Source: an uncultured Bacteroidales bacterium (GTDB taxonomy: Bacteria > Bacteroidota > Bacteroidia > Bacteroidales > UBA932). From it: a stretch of 33,150 bases of DNA. Shown here in pieces: positions 5,755-7,925 of the stretch (position 1 is its first letter; every line of letters starts with the position of its first letter). The position numbers were made by a program, and so were the translations under genes. The stretch covers positions 1 to 33,150 of the forward strand of contig ONTQ01000035.1 in NCBI GenBank assembly GCA_900320795.1. The letters run 5' to 3'. The notes below the pieces were generated by a model that searched no databases, was not told where the DNA came from, and saw only the letters and a list, made by a program, of their open reading frames with translations.

Positions 5755-6219
5755 ATGAAGATTAATTGGAAATATTTTGCAGGTTCGTTGTTTGCGCTTC
5801 TGGGATTTGGAGGTTGCAACAAGATTGACATCGGCGGCGGTCTGGCAATGTACGGGCAGCCATCGGCCGATTACAAACTCATAGGCAACGTGAAAGGACC
5901 GGACGGAAAACCCGTGGAAGGCATCCAGGCTGTTTTCGTCCCCAGGGAGGATTGGGCTTACCCCCACGAAAATGACACGCTTTACTCGAACGCACAGGGA
6001 CATTTTGAGAAAGGACGTCTCAAATACGACTGGCCGGACGACTTGAAGGACGCCAAACTCATCCTGGAGGATGTGGACGGTCCGGAAAACGGAAGTTTCA
6101 AAACCAAAACCCTGAGCAGAACCAATTTGAAGGTGGAGCAAACCAGGGAACGCAGCGGCGACTGGTATAAAGGCGCTTTCACCGTATCGGCCGATGTAAG
6201 TTTGGACAAGGACGAATAA
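5755..6219 (+). CDS. Putative lipoprotein of the radical SAM/lipoprotein system
   Basis: This is a 154-residue lipoprotein. Its signal peptide ends in a lipobox-like LGFGGC with the acylated cysteine at C21. The mature part starts with a glycine-rich stretch and MYGQPSADYK. It continues with a beta-rich region resembling carboxypeptidase-regulatory or Ig-like domains (GPDGKPVEGIQAVFVP, then DTLYSNAQGHF). The MYGxPxADYK opening and the neighbouring radical SAM gene fit the Bacteroidetes family I recall as 'lipoprotein, rSAM/lipoprotein system' (TIGR04134). The stop codon overlaps the next ATG by one base (TAATG), so the two are translationally coupled. The mature protein could be the substrate of the enzyme, or a partner; neither is shown. 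The start follows from the signal peptide. Confidence 0.85.
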   Translation: MKINWKYFAGSLFALLGFGGCNKIDIGGGLAMYGQPSADYKLIGNVKGPDGKPVEGIQAVFVPREDWAYPHENDTLYSNAQGHFEKGRLKYDWPDDLKDAKLILEDVDGPENGSFKTKTLSRTNLKVEQTRERSGDWYKGAFTVSADVSLDKDE

Positions 6220-7283
6220 TGGAACGTCTTTCCCTTCGGCGCCGCCTGGCGCTGGACATCAACAAAAAGTTGCAGGACGATGTGATTGCTGAGCATCCTC
6301 TCCGGCAACTTTTTTGGGAATGCACGCTTCGCTGCAATCTCCGTTGCCGCCACTGCGGCAGCGACTGCAAACAGACGGCCCTGGTGAAAGACATGCCCAA
6401 GGAAGACTTCGGGCGGGTGCTGGACAGCATATCGGCCCGGATGAATCCGCATAAAGTGATGATCAATATCACCGGCGGGGAGCCTCTGATGAGGCCCGAC
6501 CTGGAAGAATGCGGCCGGATGATCTACGAAAAAGGCTTCCCCTGGGGCATGGTAACCAATGCGCTGGCCCTCACGCCGGAACGTTATGTCCGCCTTCTGC
6601 AGAGCGGACTCAGAGCCATGACCATCAGCCTGGATGGTCTGGAGGACAATCATGACTGGATGCGCGGCCGGGAAGGCTCTTTCCGGCGGGCCACGGAAGC
6701 CATCCGTATGGTAGTGGCCTCCGGCGAGATTGCCTTCGACGTTGTCACCTGCGTAAACCGGCGCAATTACGGGCAGTTGGAGGCGCTGAAAGAGCATCTC
6801 ATCGGCCTGGGCGTCAAGGGCTGGCGGCTATTCACCATATTTCCCGTCGGGCGGGCGGCCGATGACCCGGAACTGAGACTCAGCCGGGAAGAACTGCACG
6901 GGGTCATGGCGTTCATCCGCCACTGCCGGAAAGAAGGGAGAATCCACACGGAATTCGCCTGCGAAGGCTTTTTGGGTAATTATGAAGGCGATGTGCGGGA
7001 CCGTTTTTACATGTGCAACGCCGGCGTTACCATCGGTTCCGTCCTGGCCGACGGCTCCATATCGGCCTGCCCCAGCATCCGGGCCAATTATGTGCAGGGA
7101 AACATCTACAAGGACGACTTCATGCACATCTGGGAGAAGGCCTATCTCCCTTACCGCGACCGCTCCTGGATGCACAGGGACGAATGCGCCGGCTGCCCCC
7201 ACTGGAAATACTGCCGGGGTGGAGGCATGCACCTCAGAGACGACGAAGGCCGATTGGTCCAGTGCCTCCTGAAGCGGATGTAA
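6219..7283 (+). CDS. Radical SAM/SPASM enzyme of the rSAM/lipoprotein system
   Basis: The 354-residue protein is a radical SAM enzyme. The 4Fe-4S motif is C39-x3-C43-x2-C46, flanked by extra cysteines at 35 and 50. The glycine-rich SAM-binding segment NITGGEP follows near residues 83-89, and ISLDGLEDNHDWMRG later. The C-terminal third is a SPASM domain with cysteines 266, 284, 323, 326, 332 and 349, which normally hold auxiliary iron-sulphur clusters. Enzymes with this layout usually modify peptides or proteins. Together with the lipoprotein just upstream it matches the family I recall as TIGR04133. No reaction is known to me. It has no signal peptide, so any modification would precede export of the lipoprotein. 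Its stop abuts the convergent queC stop with no gap. Confidence 0.9.
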   Translation: MERLSLRRRLALDINKKLQDDVIAEHPLRQLFWECTLRCNLRCRHCGSDCKQTALVKDMPKEDFGRVLDSISARMNPHKVMINITGGEPLMRPDLEECGRMIYEKGFPWGMVTNALALTPERYVRLLQSGLRAMTISLDGLEDNHDWMRGREGSFRRATEAIRMVVASGEIAFDVVTCVNRRNYGQLEALKEHLIGLGVKGWRLFTIFPVGRAADDPELRLSREELHGVMAFIRHCRKEGRIHTEFACEGFLGNYEGDVRDRFYMCNAGVTIGSVLADGSISACPSIRANYVQGNIYKDDFMHIWEKAYLPYRDRSWMHRDECAGCPHWKYCRGGGMHLRDDEGRLVQCLLKRM

Positions 7284-7925
7284 TCATGCCTCGTACTCAG
7301 TGGGATCGAAGCCTTCCAGGGCTTCCTTGCGCTCGGTGCAGGTACCGCACTTGCCGCAGTGCTTCTCTCCCCCTTTGTAGCAGGAATACGTAAGGGAATA
7401 ATCCAGGCCGATGGCCTTGCCCCTCAGGGCGATGTCCCGCTTGGTGATGTCGCAATACGGAGACACCACGCGGATACCTTCATAGGTACCGGCCTTCACG
7501 GCCGCATCCATGGCCTCCACGAACGCCGGCCGGCAGTCCGGATAGATGGCATGGTCTCCGCTGTGATTGGCCAGAAGCACCGTGTCCAGGCCATAACTCT
7601 CCGCCAGGCCGGCCGCCACGGAAAGCATGATGCCGTTGCGGAAAGGCACCACCGTGCTTTTCATGTTCTCCTCTGCATAATTGCCCTCGGGAATCTCTCC
7701 TCCACTCAGGAGAAGGTCACTCTTGAAATACTGGCCGATAAAGCCCAGCGGAATCACCAGATGCTTAATTCCCAGCCGTTTGCAATTCTCAATTGCACAG
7801 GCGATTTCCCGGGCATTGTGCTTGGAGCCATAGTCGAACGTAACGGCCAGCGCAATGCTGTCCTCATACTCATACAGCAGCGTAGTGCTGTCCAGACCTC
7901 CGGAATAAATCAATAACGCCTTCAT
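7284..7925 (-). CDS. queC: 7-cyano-7-deazaguanine (preQ0) synthase
   Basis: QueC converts 7-carboxy-7-deazaguanine to preQ0 using ATP and ammonia, in the queuosine tRNA-modification pathway. The 213-residue protein has the ATP-pyrophosphatase loop SGGLDST at residues 8-14. Near the C-terminus it has the zinc site C182, C190, C193 and C196 (CYKGGEKHCGKCGTC). It is the last gene of a minus-strand cluster. Its ATG overlaps the stop of the GltD-like gene in an ATGA junction. The other preQ0 genes, queD and queE, lie about 6 kb away on the plus strand. Confidence 0.96.
   Translation of the reverse strand: MKALLIYSGGLDSTTLLYEYEDSIALAVTFDYGSKHNAREIACAIENCKRLGIKHLVIPLGFIGQYFKSDLLLSGGEIPEGNYAEENMKSTVVPFRNGIMLSVAAGLAESYGLDTVLLANHSGDHAIYPDCRPAFVEAMDAAVKAGTYEGIRVVSPYCDITKRDIALRGKAIGLDYSLTYSCYKGGEKHCGKCGTCTERKEALEGFDPTEYEA

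Follow-up and report, generated by a model that had tools for sequence, protein, structure and literature searches.

Among the closest described counterparts of the gene pair analyzed here is the PlpX/PlpY splicease of Pleurocapsa, which gives rise to spliceotides. According to PMC11002830, PlpX, together with the truncated RRE PlpY, cuts tyramine from Xaa-Tyr-Gly, which yields an alpha-keto amide. PMC10533398 names MYG and LYG as PlpX sites, assigns the enzyme to IPR026482, and states that no leader is required and that tags such as GGPIRPLYGLPI are processed. Scott et al. 2022 are cited, in two further papers (PMC10373908, PMC11117315), for the splicease reaction being widespread and for its products inhibiting proteases. 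Two NCBIfam hypothetical equivalogs, TIGR04133 (rSAM_w_lipo) and TIGR04134 (lipo_with_rSAM), pair a radical SAM enzyme with a lipoprotein, and their library entries give no reaction. In the literature, we found no paper on TIGR04133/TIGR04134, on the name of the lipoprotein family, or on a splicease combined with a lipoprotein, and no title among the matches listed concerned this pair.

Such a pair is present in a stretch of 33,150 nucleotides (hereafter, the window) of contig ONTQ01000035.1 from an uncultured Bacteroidales bacterium. A gene for a 154-amino acid lipoprotein, the proposed substrate (positions 5755-6219, plus strand), is followed by a gene for a 354-amino acid radical SAM/SPASM enzyme (6219-7283, plus strand). 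A first-pass annotation, made from the sequence, had named the two families and the one-base TAATG overlap, and both assignments were borne out: base 6219 belongs to both ORFs, the lipoprotein stop codon TAA being 6217-6219, and in an HMM search with NCBIfam profiles and their curated cut-offs, the enzyme scores 560 bits against TIGR04133 (cut-off 425) and the lipoprotein 81.4 bits against TIGR04134 (cut-off 39.8). The enzyme also scores above the Pfam cut-offs for both the Radical_SAM and SPASM domains. The 5' neighbor of the pair is a CorA-type gene, and the 3' neighbor is an ORF on the minus strand (7284-7925) that, by eye, is QueC-like; we recognized no peptide-biosynthesis gene adjoining the pair and, at this locus, no gene for a PlpY-like truncated RRE. 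On contig C123, the same genome (2.8 Mb, 85% complete) encodes another such enzyme, adjacent to a divergent lipoprotein that begins with CYGSPQ. It also encodes a further TIGR04134 lipoprotein, with AMYGPPPNADYK (L068:3475-3945, contig C178), and there is no enzyme on the 8500 bases read around it; this protein could be a substrate that is acted on in trans.

Like PlpX, the window enzyme combines a radical SAM CX3CX2C motif (C39, C43 and C46; 6333-6356, plus strand) with a SPASM region (7014-7265, plus strand) recognized by Pfam; the cysteines of the former and Cys266, 284, 323, 326, 332 and 349 of the latter are invariant in 17 aligned enzymes. One SPASM cysteine is replaced, by Gly336, a position occupied by cysteine in a TIGR03913-like enzyme of Aureibacter. 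The structural model of the enzyme (pLDDT 92.6) has SkfB, SuiB and anSME as the nearest solved folds, and by sequence the solved structures give distant matches only (best E 2.9e-12, over residues 30-214). We take PlpX to be a member of TIGR04103, and the window enzyme falls far under the cut-off of that profile (127.8 against 725 bits). Nor can HMM scores serve as proof of kinship with PlpX, because several SPASM families score alike and TIGR04053 scores highest (133.6 bits, followed by TIGR04103, by MftC with 122.9 and by TIGR03913 with 114.9).

In a tree of 35 sequences, TIGR04133, TIGR04103, TIGR03913 and two unnamed enzymes are set apart from MftC, PqqE, NirJ, TIGR04347 and TIGR04053 with support of 100/98, in trees that lack AhbD, NirJ2 and some other SPASM families; the same split around TIGR04133/TIGR04103/TIGR03913 is recovered at 90/86 with 33 sequences, after removal of two long branches. 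The support for the PlpX-like group within the tree is weak (77/64). Constrained topologies that unite TIGR04133 with MftC, TIGR04053 or NirJ/TIGR04347 are weakly rejected (p-AU 0.039, 0.047 and 0.044, respectively), and the union with PqqE stands unrejected (p-AU 0.248). Judging from these comparisons, the kinship of TIGR04133 with the TIGR04103 and TIGR03913 enzymes appears to be moderate.

In the lipoprotein, a signal peptide ending in the lipobox FGGC (5755-5817, plus strand; identified by eye and with a regular expression) places Cys21 as the residue to be lipidated. It is followed by the segment M32-Y33-G34-Q35-P36-S37-A38-D39-Y40 (5848-5874, plus strand), which fits the consensus X-Y-G-x-P-x-x-x-[Y/F] described below and, by motif enrichment and register, contains the proposed site M32-Y33-G34, the counterpart of the X-Tyr-Gly of PlpX substrates. 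The AlphaFold2 model (mean pLDDT 87.8) predicts a beta-sandwich domain (5863-6216, plus strand) with residues 37-47 as the first strand; the motif precedes this strand, in a less certain stretch of the model, and the best matches of the domain in the PDB are weak (TM-score about 0.5). The first-pass annotation had singled out MYGQPSADYK as a possible place of modification directly after the acylated cysteine; the likely site holds up, but not its position, MYGQP being residues 32-36, 11 residues past the cysteine. The earlier argument that the usual thioether cross-links are unlikely is also upheld, as the lipoprotein contains no cysteine other than Cys21, the one to be lipidated, which rules out thioether chemistry within this protein. 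A further shared feature of the beta-sandwich partners is an L-G-F sequence shortly before the lipobox (5800-5811 in the window): in an alignment of 31 sequences picked for the presence of YGxP, Gly17 is invariant and Leu16 and Phe18 nearly so, and these residues of the signal peptide could be a recognition element for the enzyme. The invariance of Y33, G34 and P36 in the same alignment is not counted as evidence, given how its rows were picked.

The lipoprotein and the enzyme co-occur beyond chance. Among 393 genomes of the order, 94 encode TIGR04133 (E<=1e-80) and 58 encode TIGR04134 above the cut-off, and the enzyme is found in 55 of these 58 genomes compared with 39 of the 335 others (the genomes are not independent). 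The actual set of partners is wider than TIGR04134, given that in 35 of the 39 enzyme-only genomes, an exported partner with YG is encoded close to an enzyme; in the other four (G463, G524, G566 and G717), no such partner was found near the enzyme. Frequent occurrence of each gene on its own, which the first-pass annotation had named as evidence that would speak against a joint function, is thus not what we observe.

In an even draw of 395 genomes from the phylum, the enzyme was detected in three, the window's own genome included, which makes it mainly a feature of this order. Its cultured hosts include Phocaeicola coprocola DSM 17136, Phocaeicola massiliensis DSM 17679, Xylanibacter brevis ATCC 19188 and Parabacteroides distasonis, and a scan of genome contigs confirmed at least 575 relatives, of which the best 80 were kept. 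An outlier from outside the order resides on a plasmid of Treponema saccharophilum, where the pair (L147:2749-5041) lies beside a DNA invertase gene (annotated as Mpi-family serine recombinase), a setting that might point to transfer or phase variation.

For the analysis of partners, we compiled 204 enzyme ORFs that are distinct over the last 150 residues, out of 267 sequences (120 from genomes, the 80 best of the at least 575 relatives from the contig scan, three from plasmids, and the window enzyme). For 189 of these, an exported partner with Tyr-Gly is encoded nearby, and for two (L175 and L196), a partner with Tyr-Ala; for 13, none was found, and in six of these, the sequence ends close to the enzyme (L262, L234, L140, L092, L219 and L102), which is not the case for the remaining seven (L236, L256, L110, L105, L078, L235 and L129). 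The script that identified 168 of the partners required a lipobox ORF, at most 600 nt away on either side, whose first 110 mature residues contain YG; 21 more were recognized by eye in the face of odd signal peptides, overlap or distance (861 nt in one case). When the enzymes are clustered at 70% identity, 71 of the 77 clusters have a YG partner. Several short lipoproteins can accompany one enzyme, for example, four with YG around the L251 enzyme (L251:2358-4289) and several in L103.

These counts came from a search for YG itself. In a fairer test that was blind to the motif, the nearest upstream lipobox ORF on the same strand, within 150 nt of the enzyme, was taken, which gave 130 distinct ORFs. 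YG is present in the first 60 mature residues of 117 of these (32.0 in shuffled sequences) and YGxP in 104 (2.4 in shuffled sequences), with the lipobox defined by our own regular expression and the counts coming from related sequences, so that they are not independent events. Extending the stretch to 110 residues leaves seven of the 130 ORFs without YG, among them two in which Tyr-Ala immediately follows the cysteine (L175 and L089) and three fragments of long ORFs (L236, L243 and L196). Tyr-Ala in place of Tyr-Gly is seen near some enzymes as CYAPAP, LYAVP and CYASQ (L175, L196 and L089, respectively), as in some of the DUF1843 peptides discussed below. The residue that precedes YG varies (C in 36, E in 33, M in 22 and others in 32 of 123 partners), which fits a site named XYG, and 63 of the 204 distinct YG lipobox partners (the coincidence with the number of enzymes is accidental) contain two to four YG.

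With the motif removed, these 204 partners fall into 58 clusters, one of 128, some of the singletons being apparently spurious, such as a membrane protein at L261. They include beta-sandwich proteins, coiled-coil-like proteins and 33 short proteins (53-106 residues) that contain YGxP and fall outside the main cluster; among ten representatives, one scores above the TIGR04134 cut-off and none above any other NCBIfam or Pfam curated cut-off. We accordingly reject a single fixed substrate fold, the partners being unalike outside the motif. What they have in common is the extended consensus X-Y-G-x-P-x-x-x-[Y/F], which is very probably the target of the enzyme. Taken together, the pairing across genomes and the shared motif make the lipoprotein a likely substrate, as the same annotation had suggested. 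It is highly improbable that the adjacency is a historical accident and that the two proteins do not cooperate: the 13 partnerless enzymes and the three of the 58 genomes that have TIGR04134 above the cut-off and no TIGR04133 enzyme would fit such a view, but not the ordered position of the 168 script-found partners (139 upstream and 21 downstream on the same strand, eight on the opposite strand), nor the sharing of one motif by unlike partners.

Alternatively, the motif could serve as a signal for sorting or export, or as part of a linker, with the enzyme modifying another part of the protein or another molecule. Its location, mostly near the lipidated cysteine, is as expected of a sorting signal, and two proteins in G618, where no enzyme was detected, retain YG. 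Yet lipobox ORFs located more than 1500 nt from an enzyme lack the motif (YG in 5 of 38 against 4.9 in shuffled sequences; YGxP in 1 of 38 against 0.15), and partners without a lipobox (L106, L116 and L126) keep it, as AQYGAP or AQYGSW, after a signal-like stretch. Furthermore, Tyr or Tyr-Gly has disappeared from the TIGR04134 homologs of G696 (GNGSPYAKF) and G758 (NKTPHADY), two genomes in which no enzyme was detected at E<=1e-15, and from a paralog in G521 that is encoded away from its enzyme; this comparison, which includes G618, is mixed and small, and involves draft genomes (G758 is 75% complete). On balance, we regard the sorting or linker explanation as improbable.

The conservation of the motif among unlike lipoproteins allows a reaction to be proposed, namely, PlpX-type tyramine excision at XYG, with the loss of C8H9NO, which would leave a ketoamide in the product. 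The motif resembles the known splicease sites: X-Tyr-Gly is enriched across the partners and is often followed by x-Pro (compared here with the PlpX sites in PMC10533398). The likeness extends to a Nostoc enzyme annotated as nif11-class maturase 3 (TIGR04103), adjacent to which a Nif11 peptide ends in ALYGLPPELF and so fits YGxPxxx[YF], the extended motif of the TIGR04133 partners. The TIGR03913-type enzymes, which join TIGR04133 in the trees, offer a partial parallel: eight DUF1843 peptides beside three such enzymes from Azospirillum and Aureibacter carry YG near the N-terminus in four cases, and YA and YM in two cases each. These enzymes differ from the pair in the window in having about 30% identity to the window enzyme and small partner peptides without a signal sequence. 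On a plasmid of Aureibacter tunicatorum (L151:2144-4347), three DUF1843 peptides with N-terminal PYG, MYA and LYA are encoded in a row, followed by a radical SAM enzyme close to TIGR03913/TIGR04103; the DUF1843 peptides may be substrates of enzymes of this kind. For the related enzymes of Agathobacter and Tropicibacter, we recognized no clear partner peptide in the vicinity.

Tyramine excision at X-Tyr-Gly by the TIGR04133 enzyme is, in our assessment, somewhat probable. The YA and YM in half of the DUF1843 peptides, the YG proteins of G618 and the 13 partnerless enzymes count against it, and it gives no explanation for the aromatic residue conserved at +7 (92% of the 96 motifs in the main non-CYG class, 63% of the 38 in small proteins). 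This residue lends some weight to the chief rival, in which the enzyme modifies the Tyr-Gly motif by another reaction, such as cross-linking of Tyr33 to a neighbor (for example, the +7 aromatic), or oxidation or epimerization near the tyrosine. Cross-links or epimers are the products of many SPASM enzymes, the nearest solved folds, such as SkfB and SuiB, are peptide-modifying, and the SPASM region lacks the cysteine that the Aureibacter enzyme has. Against this rival, which we consider rather unlikely, the +7 aromatic is mostly absent from the CYG class (6% of 33), and the strictest pair is Tyr-Gly with a variable X, as in the published splicease site (PMC10533398).

Our best reading, again somewhat probable, is that of a splicease-like, leaderless enzyme that acts on lipoproteins before export. 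Given the cytosolic location of radical SAM enzymes and the accessibility expected of the site, modification before export is likely. In the cytosol, the enzyme would edit the still unfolded pre-lipoprotein at Tyr-Gly, within the motif that lies between the cysteine to be lipidated and the folded domain; the edited protein would then be exported, lipidated and displayed on the envelope, its linker carrying an electrophilic ketoamide. In the 36 of 123 partners whose X is the lipidated cysteine, splicing would alter only the carbonyl side of this residue, such that lipidation could still proceed, and would place the keto group immediately next to the lipid anchor. We infer that the enzyme works like a splicease and do not class it as one, because the kinship is moderate, the TIGR04103 cut-off is missed, position 336 is Gly and no PlpY-like gene adjoins; the partner, too, is a lipoprotein versus the Nif11 or nitrile-hydratase-type precursors of PlpX. 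As a guess, motivated by the reported inhibition of proteases by ketoamide peptides, the linker ketoamide might trap proteases or other nucleophiles. The full proposal, under which envelope lipoproteins of Bacteroidales are edited by a widespread family of leaderless spliceases and then present membrane-anchored alpha-keto-beta-amino acids as covalent traps, is tentative and falls slightly short of an even chance.

The pairing itself is already named in databases; the motif and the likely chemistry are the new addition, but the novelty of the link is uncertain, because the survey by Scott et al. (2022), 'Widespread microbial utilization of ribosomal beta-amino acid-containing peptides and proteins', may cover such proteins. 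If the proposal is correct, a form of backbone editing known from RiPP peptides would operate on entire lipoproteins across a large group of bacteria from gut and rumen, and a database pair listed without a function could be tested cheaply, by way of a loss of about 135 Da at X-Tyr-Gly. The proposal would also provide editing enzymes that are leaderless and have a short motif, and would suggest that commensals carry surface-exposed electrophiles.
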